From: Haliovirga abyssi
GTDB taxonomy: Bacteria; Fusobacteriota; Fusobacteriia; Fusobacteriales; Haliovirgaceae
Direction of reading: 5' to 3'
DNA length: 64,000 bases
Assembly (NCBI RefSeq): GCF_030295325.1
Contig: NZ_AP027059.1
Coordinates: forward strand, 372,001-436,000
Part shown: positions 17,302-52,620 of the stretch, one piece after another
Position numbering within the stretch: the first letter of the stretch is position 1
Layout: each line of letters opens with the position of its first letter
Notes under the pieces: model-generated
Told to the model about the DNA's origin: nothing
The model's input: the letters and a program-made list of their open reading frames with translations, nothing else
Databases searched by the model: none
Made by a program: the position numbers and the translations under genes

Positions 17302-17400
17302 GGAACGTTTAAAAAATAATGTTCTCATATTTTGTTATAAAAACGCTTAAAATATTGCGTATTTTAAAGCAAAATGGGAATGTTATTTTTAAGTCATTCC
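17302..17400 (-). repeat. Family A palindromic element, minus orientation
   Basis: The left end GGAACGTTTAAAAAATAA is the 'TTT' end and the right end TTATTTTTAAGTCATTCC is the 'GGC' end, so this copy is inverted relative to those at 21953 and 37637. The core has ATTTTGTTATAAAAACGC. Confidence 0.85.
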
Positions 17401-20231: not shown

Positions 20232-20280
20232 AAACTAAAAAAGATGGCATTATTGCCATCTTTTTTAGTTTATTTTTTTT
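20232..20280. terminator. Bidirectional terminator between gspK and the LRR gene
   Basis: A perfect 18-bp stem (20232-20249 with 20254-20271) has a TTAT loop and A/T tracts on both sides, so it can serve both convergent genes. Its right arm overlaps the stop codon of the minus-strand gene. Confidence 0.93.
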
Positions 20281-21352
20281 GTATAAATGGAATATTATTA
20301 TCTTTTGCATATGTTTCTGCATAAGAACCTGCAAAACTTTTTATTGTTATATTTGGATTCCTTTCGAAAGCCCAAAAGCCAATAGAAGTAACAGAATTTC
20401 CCATAGTAACGTTAGTTAATTGGTTATCAGAAAAAGCTGAATATTTAATAGAAGTAACAGAGTTTCCAATATTAACGCTAGTTAATTTATTATTTGAAAA
20501 AACTTCTTCGTCAATAGAAGTAACAGAACTTCCAATAGTAACACTGGTTAATTGGTTGTGATAAAAAGCTTTTTTTCCAATAGAAGTAACAGAATTTCCT
20601 ATAATAACATTTATTAATTGATTATTAGAAAAAGCAGCTTTTCCAATAGAAATAACTGAATCTGGTATATTAACACTAGTTAATTGATTGTGATAAAAAG
20701 CAGAATCTCCAATAGAAACAACTGAATTAGGAATAATAATATTATGTAATTGGTTATAATAAAAAGCTCCTTTTCCAATAGAAGTAACAGAATTTCCAAT
20801 AAAAACATTAGTTAATTGATTATTAGAAAAAGCTTCTTTTCCAATAGAAATAACTGAATCTGGTATATTAACACTGGTTAATTTCTTATCAAAAAAAGCT
20901 AAATTTCCAATAGAAGTAACAGGAATACCATCTATTTTATTAGGAATAAAAATTGATGTATCAGTTCCAATATATTCTGTTATAGTAATTTTATTGTTGT
21001 TATTTTCATATTTAAACTCCTTGCTATCGGTAGCTTTTAAATATTGAATATCAAAAGAGGTAGTTTTACTATTAAAATTAATAGTTAAAGTTTGTTTTCC
21101 AAGAATATCAGAATGAAAACCAGTAATATTATTATTAGTAATATTAATAACTTTAGTTGTTTTATCAGAATAAACTCCAGTAACCTCCAATCCACTAAGA
21201 TTTAATTGTTCTCCTTGAAGATAATTAAGTTTATTAGCAGGATGTGTAATCGTAATTTCATTTAAAGAATCCTTTTTGATTTGTGTGTTTTTAGAAAATC
21301 CTGTAAATATGAACGAACTTAAAATAGCTAATACTGTAAAAATTTTTTTCAT
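20270..21352 (-). CDS. BspA-like leucine-rich repeat surface protein with Ig-like domain
   Basis: A 360-residue exported protein. The signal peptide (residues 1-20) is followed by a bacterial Ig-like (Big_3-type) domain at about 33-102 (LNYLQGEQLNLSGLEVTGVY, then YSDKTTKVI). Eight LRR_5 (BspA/TpLRR) repeats of 22 residues run from about 145 to 335, each like LTSVNIPDSVISIGKEAF. A final GSYAETYAKDNNIPF cap is common in this family. Such proteins bind host or matrix molecules or other bacteria; the target here is unknown. The repeats are also close at the DNA level, so unit number may vary between strains. GGGAGAG lies before the ATG. Confidence 0.92.
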   Translation of the reverse strand: MKKIFTVLAILSSFIFTGFSKNTQIKKDSLNEITITHPANKLNYLQGEQLNLSGLEVTGVYSDKTTKVINITNNNITGFHSDILGKQTLTINFNSKTTSFDIQYLKATDSKEFKYENNNNKITITEYIGTDTSIFIPNKIDGIPVTSIGNLAFFDKKLTSVNIPDSVISIGKEAFSNNQLTNVFIGNSVTSIGKGAFYYNQLHNIIIPNSVVSIGDSAFYHNQLTSVNIPDSVISIGKAAFSNNQLINVIIGNSVTSIGKKAFYHNQLTSVTIGSSVTSIDEEVFSNNKLTSVNIGNSVTSIKYSAFSDNQLTNVTMGNSVTSIGFWAFERNPNITIKSFAGSYAETYAKDNNIPFIQKK

Positions 21353-21564: not shown

Positions 21565-21593
21565 TTGACAAAACAGAAAAAAAGAGATATACT
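21565..21593 (+). promoter_or_regulatory. Strong sigma-70 promoter reading toward the chitinase
   Basis: TTGACA (21565-21570), a 17-base spacer and TATACT (21588-21593). The -10 starts an imperfect palindrome TATACTAC-TAGAA-GTGGTATA (21588-21608), placed where a repressor could bind. Confidence 0.75.
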
Positions 21594-21809
21594 ACTAGAA
21601 GTGGTATATACAATATAATGATAAGTGAACATATTCTGTGAATGCGAAATTTCAAATTAAATTAAAAAAACAAAATTAATATAAAAAATAGAATGAAAGA
21701 TTATTTTAGAATTCAATTACATAAAGGATAGTTTTATACTTTTTTCAAAAATTAGATTAATAAAATTATAATTTTGGAGTCTATTCATATTATATAATAA
21801 TTTTTTAGA

Positions 21810-21902
21810 GAGATAAAAGAGTAGCTTTGGAAAGTCAAAGCTCTCCGAATACTTTTTAAAAATAATAAAGTAAAAAAGATTTCTCTGGAGAGTTAGAGGA
21901 GA
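21810..21902 (+). ncRNA. Possible structured leader RNA of the chitinase transcript
   Basis: Hairpin 1 has a stem AGCTTTG/CAAAGCT with a GAAAGT loop, extended by GAG/CTC, then TACTTTTT. Hairpin 2 has arms ATTTCTC and GAGAAAT enclosing TGGAGAGTTAGAG. I cannot match it to a known riboswitch. Confidence 0.35.
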
Positions 21903-21952
21903 AATTGGAGGTGATTATAGTGCGGCAATTCTAACTATATATAGGAAATTTA

Positions 21953-22051
21953 GGAATGGCTTAAAAATAATCTTCTGATTTTATTATAAAATACGCAACG
22001 ATTTAAGCGTTTTTATAACAAAATACAATAAACTTATTTTTTAAACGTTCC
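21953..22051 (+). repeat. Family A palindromic element in the chitinase leader
   Basis: Left end GGAATGGCTTAAAAATAA, right end TTATTTTTTAAACGTTCC. The core has TTTATTATAAAATACGC and AAGCGTTTTTATAACAAAA. Confidence 0.88.
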
Positions 22052-22104
22052 TTAAAATGTTAGATGCTTTATAAGGGTATGTAAGAAAAAAAGGAGGGAA
22101 AAGA

Positions 22105-25100
22105 ATGAGTAGATGTTGGAAAGAGTTGGTGAAACTATTATTGTTTACAATTATAATAGTACCAATAACAGCTCAAAATGGAACTGTTTCAGACGTTAAA
22201 AATGATGGTATGCAGAGAAGAATTATAGGGTATTTTTCAGAGTGGCGACCTAATGATTACACAGTAGCGGATATACCATGGGGAAAAATTACCCATATAA
22301 ATTATGCTTTTGCAAAAGTAAATTCAGAAACTAATAAAATAGATTTTTGTAATAAAAAAGATGCTATAGAATTAGATTTTCCAGGGCAAGATTTAACATT
22401 GCCATACAAAGGACATTTTAATTTATTGACAGTTTATAAAAGAAAGTATCCTAAAGTAAAAACTTTAATATCGGTAGGAGGTTGGGCAGCTGCAAAAGGA
22501 TTTTATACAATGAGTGAAACAGAATTAGGAAGAGAAACTTTTGCAGATAGTGCAGTAGAATTTATAAGAAAATATGGATTTGATGGAGTTGATATTGATT
22601 ATGAATATCCAACAGCAACTGTTGGAGCTGGAAATCCAGATGATTTTGATGTAGCAGAACCAAGAAGAAAAACTTTATATCAAGATTATGTTAAGTTAAT
22701 GAAAGTGTTGAGAGAAAAGCTTGATGTTGCAGGTCAAAATGATAATAAACATTACTTATTGACAATTGCAGCTCCTGCATCATCTTGGATTTTAGGTGGA
22801 ATGGGATTAGGAGATTATGCTCAATATTTAGATTTTATAAATATAATGAGTTATGATTTTCATGGTTCTTGGAATGGATATGTAGGGAATAATTCAGCTC
22901 TATTACCAGATGATAGAGATCTAGAAACAAAACCATTAGGGACTCCAGTTTTAAATATAGATTGGTCATATAGATATTTTAGAGGTGTAGTACCACCATC
23001 AAAAATAAATATAGGAATACCTTATTATACTCGTGGTTGGAAAAATGTTCAAGGTGGTATAGATGGGCATGGATTATATGGAACTGCTAAATTAGGCTCA
23101 GGAGGAGATGGAGCTGTAGGAATAGACAATGTTTGGCATGACTTTGATAAAGATGGTAAAGAGCTGCCAGGTGGTGGAAATCCTTTATGGCATGTTAAAA
23201 ATCTATTAGCAGGAAGACATGATTTTAGTTATATTGATCATCCTGTATTTGGAGGATTTGATCCGAATTATCAAGGAAATTACATTAGGTATTGGGATGA
23301 TGTATCAAAAGTTCCATATGTGTGGAATGATGCGAAAAAAGTATTCTTATCATTTGAAGATGAGCAGTCTTTAAAAGAAAAAATCAACTATATCATTAAT
23401 AAAGGTCTCGGTGGAATGATGATATGGGAGCTTGCAGGGGATTTTTCTAAAAAGGCAGATGGAGAATATTATATTGGAGATACAATGACATCTCTTGCTT
23501 ATAATATGTTGAAAAATGCTCCAGCTCCAGATAATAGAATGTATACAATAGATATGCCTCAAAAAATAATGAATTTTGAAATTAAATTTTCATATAAATA
23601 TGATCATCCAAATGCAACTTATGAGTTTTCTATTGTAAATCATACAGATAAAACAATAGATAAGGGTTGGGTTTTAGAATTTAATATGCCTACAACAACT
23701 ACAATGAGTGAAGGAACTTGGAGTGGGTTAAAAGTAAAAGAGATTGGAAGAGGATATGATTATGTTAGATACAGAGTTATTGGAGATGCTTGGGGGACAG
23801 AGATTCAACCTAATGGTACATATACATTTACAGGTATGTCAAAACTTTGTTTTGCAGGAGGACCAAAAGCTGTAACATTAAACGGCTTTGCTTCAAGTTA
23901 CGAAATTACAATAAAAGATACAGATGGAGATGGTTTATCTGATAATATAGAAGCAAAATTAGGAACAGATCCTAAGAAAAAAGATACAGATGGAGATGGA
24001 TATACAGATAAAGAGGAATATGATAATGGAACTAATTCATTAGATCCAAATGATCCTAAATATTTTAATGTAACAATTTTATCAGTTGATGATAATGGAA
24101 ATAGAATTGGAAAAGCACAATATGAAATTAAATCAGGAGAAAAATTTACTGTAAATGCATTATCTATTATTACAGATCCTAGTTTGAGTTTTGTAAAATG
24201 GGATAATAATTCAACTAATTCAGAAAGAGAAATTACAGTATTAAAAAATACAACATTAACAGCTACATTTAAAACAGTGATAATAAATTATATTAATATT
24301 ATTACAGAAGCCCACGATAGGAATGGAAATGTAATAGGAACAGTTACTAAAAAAGTTAAAGCTAACGAAACAGTAAAAATAGATATAAAAGATTTAAAAA
24401 TAAATTCAGAGTATAGTTTTATAAAATGGGAAGATGGAACATTATCAAGTATAAGAGATGTTAAATCTGACAAAGATTTGAAAATTGTTGTTTTATTTAA
24501 AAAATCTGATTCAGGAAATAGTGGGAATAATAATAAAAAAAGAATAGTAGCTTATTTTCCAGAATGGGGAATATATTCTGGGCATAATAATTATACACCA
24601 GCAGATATACCGTGGGATAAAGTTACTCATATAAATTATGCTTTTGCAACAATAAAAAATGGAGAAATAGCAGTATTTGATGATTGGGCAGCAACAGGAG
24701 TAAGTTTAGGAGAAGCTTGGGATTCACCTTATAAAGGGTGTCTAGGTCAATTTAAAAAGCTAAAGAAACTACATCCTAAAACAAAAACTATGATTTCAAT
24801 AGGAGGATGGTCTCAATCTGCAAATTTCCATTTTGTAGCAGCAACAGCAGAATCAAGGGAAAAGTTTGCAGATAGTGTTGTGAAATTTATAAGAAAATGG
24901 GATTTTGATGGTGTAGATATTGATTGGGAATATCCAACATTTAAAAGAGAACCAGATAAAACTGATAATCCTAACGATCAAGGTACACCATATGCAGATG
25001 ATACTGAAAAAGAGACATTTACTCTATTGTTGAAGAGCTTGAGGACAACTTTAGATAAAGCTGGATTAACAGATAATAAGCATTATGAATTATCTGCAGC

Positions 25101-27438
25101 AGTTGGATGTGGAAAAGATAAAATAGAGAAAACTGAACCTGCTAAATATTCTAAATATTTAGATTTTATAAATATAATGACATATGATATTCATGGTGCT
25201 TGGGATAAAGTTACAGGACATCAATCTCCATTATATGCAAATCTATATGCACCATACAGTGATTTAATAAAACAATATTATAATGTAGATGCTTCTATGA
25301 ATCTTTTTGCAGGGTATGGAATACCAAAGAGTAAATTATTAGTTGGCTCTCCATATTATTCTAGAGGGTGGAAAGGTGTAAAAGATGATGGTCCAATAGA
25401 TAGTTTGCCTGGATTATATGCAACTGCAACAGGAGGAGCAAAAGGGACTTGGGATGGAGGAGTGCCAGGAGGAATGAATCCATTTTATTATATAAAATCA
25501 ACATTAGAAAAAGATAATTCATTTAAAAAATACAGAGATCCTTGGACAAAAATGCCTTATTTATATAGCAAATCAAAAGGGGAAATGTATACATATGAAG
25601 ATGAAGAATCTTTGCAGACAAGAGTAGATTATGTAAAAGATAATGGGTATGGTGGAATAATTTTCTGGGAGCTATCAGGAGATTATCCATCTAAAGGAGG
25701 AACAACTCTTACAGATATAATTTATAATGGATTTAAAGATAATACACCAGTAGAAAAAGTAAAAATAATAGTGAAAACATCAATAGATGGAGTTTTAAGT
25801 GTAGTAAAAAGTGAAGATGTAATAAAAAATTCTGATTATGTTATAGATGCAGGGAAATTATCAGACATGGAATTTATAAAATGGGAAGATAATTCAACAA
25901 ATGCAGTTAGAACATTAAAAGCGGATAGTGATAAAGAGTTGATAGCATATTATAAAAAAGTAGTTGTACCTGAAAAAGTAAAATTAACATTAAAGGCAAT
26001 AGATGAAAAAGGAACACTATTAAAAACAGAAACAGTAGATGTAGTAAAAGATGCAGATTATACAGCAGATGCAAAACAACTGTCTGATTTAGAATTTGTA
26101 AAATGGTCAGATGGAGAAACATCTGCAGTTAGAGTAATAAAAGTATCTTCGGATATGGTATTGACAGCTGAATTTAAAAAAGTAGAAAATAATACAAATT
26201 ATCCAGCTTGGGATTCTAATACAATATATTTAAAAGATGATAAAGTGGTACATAATGAAAAAATATGGCAGGCAAAATGGTGGAATAAAGGCAATGAGCC
26301 AGGAACAACACAATGGGGACCTTGGGAAGATTTAGGAGAAGCCTCAAATAATGGAGGAGATTCTGGGAATACAGGAGGAAATACAGGAGGAAATACAGCT
26401 ACTATTCCTTGGCCAACAACTGTAGGAGAAAAAGTGATTTTTACAGATAAAGAGATAAAAGCAACATTTGGAGAAATTTCTCCAAACACATATCCTGATA
26501 AAGTTGGAGAAAAAGTACAAGAGTTAATGAGCAAAAGTGAATATGAAAATATTTTTCCATATAGATATGGTTCTACTAAATGGAATGAATTTAATAATAA
26601 ATCAGAACAAGAATATTATTCATATGAAAATTTAATAAGTGCTTTAAAAGAGTTATCAAGATTTATGTTAAGAGTAGAAACTAAAAAATATACTAACAGA
26701 GTATTTAGATTGGATAAAATAACTAAAGAGGTTACTTTATTAAAAGAAGATAAAGACTTTAATGGAGATTGGCTTCAAAATGTAAATCCAATAATAGATA
26801 CAGCGGATTATGGTAAATTTTTGAATGAGGGTACAATGGAGGAGAGAAAAAGAGATTTAGCTGCATTTTTAGCAAATATATCTCATGAAACAACAGGTGG
26901 TTGGAAAACTGCACCAGGAGGACCTCAATCTTGGGGATTATATTATAAAGAAGAGATGAATCATGACGATAATAGTGTTGGTGGATATGTAGCAGCAAGT
27001 GAAGAATATCCAGCACAAGATGGGCAGTCTTATCACGGAAGAGGACCTATTCAACTTAGTTATAATTATAACTATGGATATATGAGTCAAATAATATATG
27101 GAGATAAAATGGTTCTTTTGAAAAATCCAAAACTTGTATCTCATAATGGAAAATTAGGATTTATGACAGGTATATGGTTTTGGATGACACCACAAAATCC
27201 TAAACCATCTTGTCATGATGTAATGGTGGGGAATTGGATTCCTACAGCAGAAGATTTAGCTGAAAATAGAAAACCTGGTTTTGGAGTTACTATAAATGTG
27301 ATAAATGGAGGACTTGAAGCAGGAAAGCCTCATGATTCAAGAGTAGATGATAGAATAGCATTTTATGAAAAAATAACAGAAGCTTTAGGAGTTACTCCTG
27401 GAGATAATATAGACTGTTATACTCAAAAAAGATTTTGA
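22105..27438 (+). CDS. Giant multidomain chitinase: GH18-CBM-TSP3-GH18-CBM5/12-GH19
   Basis: A 1777-residue secreted chitin hydrolase with a Sec signal peptide (residues ~1-24, ending PITAQ). Domains in order: GH18 (~38-485) with FDGVDIDYE at 159-167 and catalytic E167; a CBM2-like beta domain (~495-603); calcium-binding thrombospondin type 3-like repeats (DTDGDGLSD at 605, DTDGDGYTD after it, to ~650); two InlB B-repeat-like modules (~655-800, each ending in a F-KW motif and E-I-V/T-A-F); a second GH18 (~812-1210) with FDGVDIDWE at 934-942 and catalytic E942; two more InlB-like modules (~1218-1360); a CBM5/12 chitin-binding module (~1367-1410, aromatic residues in YPAWDSNTIY and WQAKWWNKG); a Gly/Asn linker; and a GH19 domain (~1435-1777) with HETTGGW (E1595), YYKEEMN and YHGRGPIQLSYNYNYG. 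All three catalytic domains look intact. GH18 retains and GH19 inverts configuration, so the enzyme may attack chitin in complementary ways. It ends at a terminator; the type II secretion operon follows. Confidence 0.95.
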   Translation: MSRCWKELVKLLLFTIIIVPITAQNGTVSDVKNDGMQRRIIGYFSEWRPNDYTVADIPWGKITHINYAFAKVNSETNKIDFCNKKDAIELDFPGQDLTLPYKGHFNLLTVYKRKYPKVKTLISVGGWAAAKGFYTMSETELGRETFADSAVEFIRKYGFDGVDIDYEYPTATVGAGNPDDFDVAEPRRKTLYQDYVKLMKVLREKLDVAGQNDNKHYLLTIAAPASSWILGGMGLGDYAQYLDFINIMSYDFHGSWNGYVGNNSALLPDDRDLETKPLGTPVLNIDWSYRYFRGVVPPSKINIGIPYYTRGWKNVQGGIDGHGLYGTAKLGSGGDGAVGIDNVWHDFDKDGKELPGGGNPLWHVKNLLAGRHDFSYIDHPVFGGFDPNYQGNYIRYWDDVSKVPYVWNDAKKVFLSFEDEQSLKEKINYIINKGLGGMMIWELAGDFSKKADGEYYIGDTMTSLAYNMLKNAPAPDNRMYTIDMPQKIMNFEIKFSYKYDHPNATYEFSIVNHTDKTIDKGWVLEFNMPTTTTMSEGTWSGLKVKEIGRGYDYVRYRVIGDAWGTEIQPNGTYTFTGMSKLCFAGGPKAVTLNGFASSYEITIKDTDGDGLSDNIEAKLGTDPKKKDTDGDGYTDKEEYDNGTNSLDPNDPKYFNVTILSVDDNGNRIGKAQYEIKSGEKFTVNALSIITDPSLSFVKWDNNSTNSEREITVLKNTTLTATFKTVIINYINIITEAHDRNGNVIGTVTKKVKANETVKIDIKDLKINSEYSFIKWEDGTLSSIRDVKSDKDLKIVVLFKKSDSGNSGNNNKKRIVAYFPEWGIYSGHNNYTPADIPWDKVTHINYAFATIKNGEIAVFDDWAATGVSLGEAWDSPYKGCLGQFKKLKKLHPKTKTMISIGGWSQSANFHFVAATAESREKFADSVVKFIRKWDFDGVDIDWEYPTFKREPDKTDNPNDQGTPYADDTEKETFTLLLKSLRTTLDKAGLTDNKHYELSAAVGCGKDKIEKTEPAKYSKYLDFINIMTYDIHGAWDKVTGHQSPLYANLYAPYSDLIKQYYNVDASMNLFAGYGIPKSKLLVGSPYYSRGWKGVKDDGPIDSLPGLYATATGGAKGTWDGGVPGGMNPFYYIKSTLEKDNSFKKYRDPWTKMPYLYSKSKGEMYTYEDEESLQTRVDYVKDNGYGGIIFWELSGDYPSKGGTTLTDIIYNGFKDNTPVEKVKIIVKTSIDGVLSVVKSEDVIKNSDYVIDAGKLSDMEFIKWEDNSTNAVRTLKADSDKELIAYYKKVVVPEKVKLTLKAIDEKGTLLKTETVDVVKDADYTADAKQLSDLEFVKWSDGETSAVRVIKVSSDMVLTAEFKKVENNTNYPAWDSNTIYLKDDKVVHNEKIWQAKWWNKGNEPGTTQWGPWEDLGEASNNGGDSGNTGGNTGGNTATIPWPTTVGEKVIFTDKEIKATFGEISPNTYPDKVGEKVQELMSKSEYENIFPYRYGSTKWNEFNNKSEQEYYSYENLISALKELSRFMLRVETKKYTNRVFRLDKITKEVTLLKEDKDFNGDWLQNVNPIIDTADYGKFLNEGTMEERKRDLAAFLANISHETTGGWKTAPGGPQSWGLYYKEEMNHDDNSVGGYVAASEEYPAQDGQSYHGRGPIQLSYNYNYGYMSQIIYGDKMVLLKNPKLVSHNGKLGFMTGIWFWMTPQNPKPSCHDVMVGNWIPTAEDLAENRKPGFGVTINVINGGLEAGKPHDSRVDDRIAFYEKITEALGVTPGDNIDCYTQKRF

Positions 27439-36249: not shown

Positions 36250-36391
36250 GAAACGGCTTAAAAAATCTTATCATTTTATTTTAAAAGGCTCAAGGTTCTT
36301 TTATGAAAATCACATAAAAAAACTATGCCCAACGTATGCAATGATTCAAGCGTTTTTATAATAAAATATATAAAATTACTTTTTAAACGTT
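36250..36391 (+). repeat. Family A palindromic element, long form
   Basis: Ends AAACGGCTTAAAAAATC and TTTTTAAACGTTA. Compared with the short form it has ~45 extra bases in the centre (starting AAGGCTCAAGGTTCTTTTAT). A second half-end (GGAACGATTTAAAAAC) follows at 36397. No other terminator is seen after gspD. Confidence 0.82.
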
Positions 36392-37636: not shown

Positions 37637-37734
37637 GGAACGGCTTAAAAATAACCTTCTGATTTTGTTTTAAAATACGCAATGGTTTAAGCGTTTTTAT
37701 AACAAAAAATGAGAAATTTATTTTTTAAACGTTC
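37637..37734 (+). repeat. Family A palindromic element in the gapA leader
   Basis: Left end GGAACGGCTTAAAAATAA, right end TTATTTTTTAAACGTTC. The core has ATTTTGTTTTAAAATACGC and AAGCGTTTTTATAACAAAA. Confidence 0.9.
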
Positions 37735-42559: not shown

Positions 42560-42705
42560 GGAATGTTTAAAAAATAATTTTCTCATATTTTGTTATAAAA
42601 ATGCTTGAAACGTTGCATGCGTTGGGCGTAGTTTTTTATGTGGTTTTCATAAAAGAACCTTGAGCCTTTTAAAACAAAACAGATAAGTTATTTTTAAGCC
42701 ATTCC
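42560..42705 (-). repeat. Family A palindromic element, long form, minus orientation
   Basis: Left end GGAATGTTTAAAAAATAA, right end TTATTTTTAAGCCATTCC. Its centre is the reverse complement of the extra segment in the copy at 36250 (compare AAAAGAACCTTGAGCCTTTT). Confidence 0.85.
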
Positions 42706-52421: not shown

Positions 52422-52478
52422 AATAATAGGGTTCAAATCGAGCATCTTGCTTGATTTGAACCCTATTATTTTTTTTTA
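52422..52478 (+). terminator. Rho-independent terminator after the giant lipoprotein
   Basis: A perfect 18-bp stem (52422-52439 with 52453-52470) has a further GAGCA/TGCTT inner stem and a long T-run. Confidence 0.96.
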
Positions 52479-52484
52479 TTAATT

Positions 52485-52620
52485 AGGAAAGTATAAATTT
52501 ATTCAGAAAATAAGCTACGCTATTTTTAAAAAATATGCGATTTTTCAAGGCAAAATTTTTCAGAAACCAAAAATTTAGAAAAACATTTATACTCTACCAG
52601 ATGAAGGCGTAGTTTATTTT
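52485..52620 (+). repeat. Family B element, plus orientation
   Basis: Inverted ends AAATAAGCTACGC (52508-52520) and GCGTAGTTTATTT (52607-52619). The interior has TATGCGATTTTTCAAGGC and matches the copy at 17484. It ends at the stop codon of the minus-strand gene. Confidence 0.87.

Follow-up and report, generated by a model that had tools for sequence, protein, structure and literature searches.

A proposed NagR-type operator at the promoter of a multidomain chitinase gene with a long leader in Haliovirga abyssi

As excerpts of two reports describe them, the closest systems are the regulons of NagR (YvoA) in Bacillus, a GntR/HutC repressor encoded with nagA and nagB. In B. subtilis, NagR bound at dre sites prevents transcription until effectors release it; arginines 38 and 48 and glycine 69 are DNA contacts, and its native sites have asymmetric half-sites, with GG in one and TG in the other (PMC4333415). 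The regulon takes in nagAB and nagP and, in B. thuringiensis, chiA, chiB and the gene of a chitin-binding protein, all three of which are repressed by NagR (PMC4333415, PMC6141813). In Streptomyces, DasR, a protein of the same family acting at the same type of site, controls chitin and GlcNAc genes (PMC6141813). Literature searches judged by title gave nothing related for Fusobacteri with chitin and NagR, and no matching system for a chitinase with a riboswitch or untranslated region. In this work, we analyzed the chitinase gene and its upstream region in a 64,000-nt stretch of H. abyssi DNA (hereafter, the window; Table 1). Our main reading, to which we give a probability of about 0.83, is that the chitinase promoter is repressed by the only NagR-type regulator of the genome, binding to a dre-type operator next to it, and is co-induced with the nag operon, any putative control by the leader RNA being secondary.

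Table 1. Features of the chitinase locus, numbered from the first base of the window
Feature	Position	Strand	Remarks
Sigma-70-type promoter TTGACA-N17-TATACT, chitinase	21565..21593	+	Hexamers and spacer recur at the head of the nag operon
Palindrome of the original prediction, ATATACTACT-aga-AGTGGTATAT	21587..21609		9/10 pairs; overlaps the -10 box
Proposed NagR (dre-type) operator GTGGTATATACAAT	21601..21614		Just 3' of the -10 box, where the transcript is expected to start
Predicted three-way RNA junction	21798..21895	+	34 pairs, 6 of them G-U; -28.2 kcal/mol vs -18.7 on the other strand
GGAGGTG with 4-codon GTG frame	21907..21934	+	GGAGGTG 21907-21913; GTG CGG CAA TTC TAA 21920-21934
Core of genome-wide MITE-like palindromic repeat (family A copy)	21953..22050	+	Flanks TTTA / CTTA
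Right arm of the repeat	22032..22053	+	Predicted pairing with the chitinase ribosome-binding site and start codon
Shine-Dalgarno AAGGAGGG, chitinase	22091..22098	+
Chitinase gene	22105..27438	+	1777 aa; GH18 - ChiC - TSP3 - GH18 - CBM5/12 - GH19

The chitinase gene is preceded by 752 intergenic bases, which it has in common with a divergent gene on the minus strand (20270-21352). The original prediction placed a near-consensus promoter about 510 bases before the start codon, overlapping a palindrome, and both are indeed present: the promoter matches 11 of 12 consensus positions, and the end of its -10 box lies 511 nt from the ATG. A match of at least 11/12 on the plus strand was reached in 9 of 300 dinucleotide shuffles of the intergenic region, and promoter-like sites are here not commoner than expected by chance (11 found, shuffle mean 14.7). 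This frequency would allow the match at 21565 to be fortuitous, with transcription beginning later, for example from 21744-21772 (TTCAAA-17-TATAAT). We consider this unlikely, however: the window has no other exact TTGACA-N17-TATACT, the head of the nag operon shows identical hexamers and spacer, and the operator adjoins the copy at 21565. As for the palindrome, the one first described has its right arm in common with a second, GTGGTATATACAAT, and it is the latter that is informative.

A whole-genome search with the chitinase site led to a near copy just 5' of the ATG of the single UTRA-GntR gene that the genome encodes, hereafter nagR (C2:208071-208802). The core TKGTMTAKACMA occurs exactly at six places in the 2,725,473 bases of the genome, namely the chitinase promoter, the head of the nag operon, the start of nagR and three positions inside ORFs. 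Since the reversed control pattern gave 15 matches, the count alone is not enriched and the case for the operator rests on position; likewise, the 15-base form of the operator, with up to three mismatches allowed, is no commoner in the genome than its control. The telling point is that each of the three gene-start sites goes with genes for chitin or GlcNAc. The arrangement is also alike at two of them: the chitinase promoter reads TTGACA-N17-TATACT-ACTAGAA-GTGGTATATACAAT and the head of the nag operon TTGACA-N17-TATACT-A-TTGGTATAGACCAC, the two operators being equal at 11 of 14 positions and differing at three. The site at the start of nagR lies inside the longest possible ORF, which has a TTG start, and falls outside the gene only with the ATG start, the one with the better ribosome-binding site.

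The regulator contains the GntR DNA-binding domain (PF00392) and the UTRA effector domain (PF07702), both above cut-off. Its closest relative in the PDB is NagR/YvoA of B. subtilis (E 1.8e-44), followed by Streptomyces DasR at a lower similarity (E about 1e-27), and the three DNA-contacting residues of YvoA, Arg38, Arg48 and Gly69, are kept, as counted by hand on the alignment from the PDB search. The gene is flanked by murQ on one side and a GH3 gene on the other, with nagB, nagA and ABC sugar-transport genes in the same operon. As read from the sequence, the order of the operon is nagB, ABC ATPase, nagA, murQ, regulator, GH3 glycosidase, two permeases, binding protein and chemoreceptor; five of the proteins, including the regulator, MurQ, the GH3 enzyme and the binding protein, were assigned with Pfam and the other names come from reading the sequences. 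The regulator is thus encoded together with nagA and nagB, and a dre-type operator is common to the nag operon and the chitinase promoter. We also observed that this nag/chitobiose operon opens, immediately after the NagR operator, with a chemoreceptor-like gene (L070:13805-15841). This suggests co-induction of chemotaxis towards chitin sugars and of their uptake.

The arrangement in front of the nagR operon recurs in another family belonging to this order. G058 and G076, a pair of species from one genus of that family, have a NagR that is 57% identical; these are the two genomes whose operon heads were looked at among those with NagR homologues. In both, TTGACA, a TATATAAT box and TGGTATAGACCAC precede a nagR-murQ-nagA-nagB operon, 5' of its leading gene pair, which from its sequence looks like PTS components; the 14-base TGGTATAGACCAC is identical to the operator at the head of the nag operon of H. 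abyssi. For the other 29 NagR homologues scanned, the 250 nt preceding the gene contained no dre-like site with at most one mismatch. Clean palindromes were seen 190-239 nt upstream of other GntR/UTRA genes of the phylum at three loci (L141, L137 and L130), with differing centres (TTGGTACGTACCAA, CTGGTATGTACCAG and TTGGTATGAACCAA); these are possibly operators of paralogous regulators.

The chitinase itself combines two GH18 domains and one GH19 domain in a single protein, and the genome has no other GH18 gene. Matches to it were found in 14 of 98 genomes of the same phylum (its own included), the full protein in its own genome only. The closest matches of the second GH18 domain come from Clostridium (71-72% identity), a Lentisphaerae MAG (68%) and a Sulfurimonas MAG (63%), and the identity of about 72% to Clostridium chitinases suggests, at the level of sequence, a transfer between phyla. 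The foreign chitinase genes have neither the leader nor the operator, with no dre-like site (at most one mismatch) within 700 nt upstream of 11 foreign chitinase ORFs in 10 loci; the control region therefore appears local to this lineage.

Taken together, the promoter, the operator match, the layout shared with the nag operon, the conservation in two species and a NagR homologue with the DNA-reading residues make it most likely that the chitinase gene is repressed by NagR and freed by amino-sugar phosphates, although binding, effector and transcript start are what we infer. The chitinase mRNA would begin at the promoter given in Table 1, and NagR, occupying GTGGTATATACAAT across the transcript start, should, by analogy with NagR of B. 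subtilis and B. thuringiensis, block transcription until amino-sugar phosphates rise. Imported chitin fragments would be converted to these phosphates, and with their accumulation NagR would let go, so that the chitinase gene and the nag operon would be induced together. The resulting transcript would carry a leader of about 500 nt, its distal 100 nt or so consisting of an inserted MITE-like repeat.

The likeness to the Bacillus system, within the excerpts cited at the outset, comprises (i) a GntR/HutC repressor with conserved DNA-reading residues, (ii) an asymmetric dre-type operator, the chitinase site having GG at -5/-4 in one half and TG in the other, (iii) the encoding of the regulator with nagA and nagB, and (iv) a chitinase target. 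The differences are that the present system belongs to another phylum and that its regulator lies in a nagB-nagA-murQ-nagR-GH3-ABC transporter operon. Besides, the dre sites of Bacillus and Streptomyces have a TCTAGA-like centre, whereas the centre of the chitinase site is TATATA.

The original prediction had drawn attention above all to the leader, which would be about 500 nt long with a start near 21600, and had taken its layout as typical of a cis-regulated gene. Its individual elements are there. The two hairpins correspond to two folded stretches, 21796-21896 (MFE -29.0, z -4.72) and 21946-22062 (z -4.47), neither of which was equalled in 200 shuffles; 21600-21740 (z +1.39), 21833-21947 (z -0.10) and 21880-21950 (z +0.43) are not unusually folded. 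The GGAGGTG site with its 4-codon frame and the family A copy are also present. GGAGG followed by a start codon 4-10 nt later arose in 21 of 1000 shuffles of 21600-21952, in a test chosen after the site had been seen, and the site is weak evidence for a leader peptide.

What this leader does can be explained in several ways. It could be passive, the promoter having been pushed away from the gene by insertion of the repeat and by AT-rich drift, with folds that are incidental or merely protect the mRNA. The distal 100 nt or so are indeed an inserted repeat, outside the repeat the leader is unique sequence, for the most part unfolded, and at the head of the nag operon the same promoter and operator stand only a few tens of bases from the gene; the 98-nt junction is, however, far more stable than its shuffles (z -4.7). 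We give this explanation even odds. Alternatively, the leader could be an undescribed cis-acting RNA switch in which the junction senses and the distal leader gates the ribosome-binding site. The strong, strand-specific fold of the junction would fit such a role, as would the predicted effects of the repeat on the ribosome-binding site described below, but by GC-corrected energy the junction ranks only 14th among 376 intergenic windows of 100 nt, no Rfam family corresponds to it and no homologue of it was found in 98 genomes; a switch of this kind is improbable. The strongest GC-corrected fold among the intergenic windows scanned lies elsewhere, at 52422-52521, on both strands. A terminator-like hairpin was also noticed on the minus strand at 21823-21842, inside the junction (0.3 expected by chance).

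The original prediction held that the structure fits no known riboswitch. This is borne out: within the leader the gathering score was not attained for any Rfam family, and even the best of the weaker matches stay far below theirs. It had also named lack of conservation in relatives as evidence against a regulatory leader, and no credible homologue of the leader DNA was found outside its own genome in 98 genomes of the phylum, a set that contains no species of the same genus or family. Nor did a covariance model of the junction, for which a single sequence was entered twice, give a credible homologue in this set. Its only match below E 0.01, in G036 (E 6e-4), was rejected for lying inside a 561-aa ORF; 17 weaker matches outside the own genome, with E from 0.09 to 1, were not inspected singly. 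Leader DNA matches with E from 1e-8 to 1e-3 outside the own genome, in a set of 60 genomes and likewise in the 98 same-phylum genomes, were discarded as short AT-rich stretches. Neither plasmids nor 14 loci of chitinase relatives (best E 0.027) held a homologue of the leader DNA, and no exact 21-mer of the junction was present in viral contigs. Trans-acting small RNAs act on chitin genes in E. coli and Listeria, and a long leader before a chitin gene could likewise be the target of one; the only Rfam gathering match in the window is, however, a tRNA, and we regard this explanation as very unlikely.

The repeat in the distal leader belongs to a large family. Its 22-base core pattern, with up to three mismatches, occurs 151 times in the genome against three for the control; 29 of the 30 copies examined are intergenic, and 19 of the 30 have equal 3-nt flanks, where 8.1 would be expected from random pairing of flanks. 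Short, multicopy, bounded by terminal inverted repeats and a target duplication, and devoid of coding capacity, the element has the properties of a MITE. It resembles the bacterial MITE-like intergenic repeats ERIC, Correia and RUP in being palindromic, about 100 bp long, present in about 150 copies and mostly intergenic, with short TNA-like flank agreement. Among the matches listed, the cores within the window lie at 17330-17351 (-), 22002-22023 (+), 36345-36366 (+), 37686-37707 (+) and 42588-42609 (-), and some of the listed cores are paired 47-48 bp apart, suggesting a longer variant of the repeat with two cores. At L028:1501-1605 and the stretch that follows, two copies stand head to tail with a junction sequence in common.

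In the folding models, the repeat bears on translation of the chitinase. The predicted unpaired fraction of its Shine-Dalgarno is 15% when the repeat is present and 99% when it is left out; freeing the Shine-Dalgarno would cost 7.7 kcal/mol, the highest value among 22 genes of the window, and none of 200 shuffles of the repeat reached the observed 7.6 kcal/mol. Two mutually exclusive folds of the repeat are also predicted. These are the points that favour an RNA switch. Against it, 28 other copies of the repeat swapped into the same place gave 0.3-9.2 kcal/mol (mean 4.9), the swaps being made with copies whose right end is kept, as right-trimmed ones would be an unfair comparison. Other copies would thus mask the site as well, and the pairing is not special to the chitinase copy: in these models the masking belongs to the end sequence of the repeat and is not an adaptation of this copy. 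It is very unlikely that there is a two-layer switch, in which a DNA repressor would act together with a domesticated repeat arm hiding the ribosome-binding site and the species-specific junction would decide whether that arm folds on itself or onto the start codon.

The right end of the repeat, UUAUUUUUUAAACGUUCCUUA, shows a likeness to the anti-Shine-Dalgarno, and the models indicate that it may dampen translation of downstream genes in the same orientation. Behind other copies, the cost of freeing the Shine-Dalgarno was 0.6-6.8 kcal/mol for 10 genes in the same orientation and 0.7-1.3 kcal/mol for four in the opposite one, a hint of an orientation difference. The leader thus raises a side question, namely whether a common intergenic repeat dampens the translation of genes 3' of its insertions.

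Altogether, repression by NagR remains the preferred reading, and the leader may be a second layer on top of it, its cis-acting RNA control being putative and based on modelled folds. The designation of the chitinase as a cis-regulated gene is well supported as regards a NagR-type operator at its promoter and does not stand, on present evidence, as regards the leader RNA. What had appeared as an unknown structured leader gives way to a concrete and testable rule, that of one NagR-type repressor, which would link chitin degradation (contig C1) to amino-sugar use (contig C2) through near-identical promoter-operator layouts. The chitinase gene would thus be under ordinary, well-supported repressor-operator control, as one more target of a regulator of the NagR kind.
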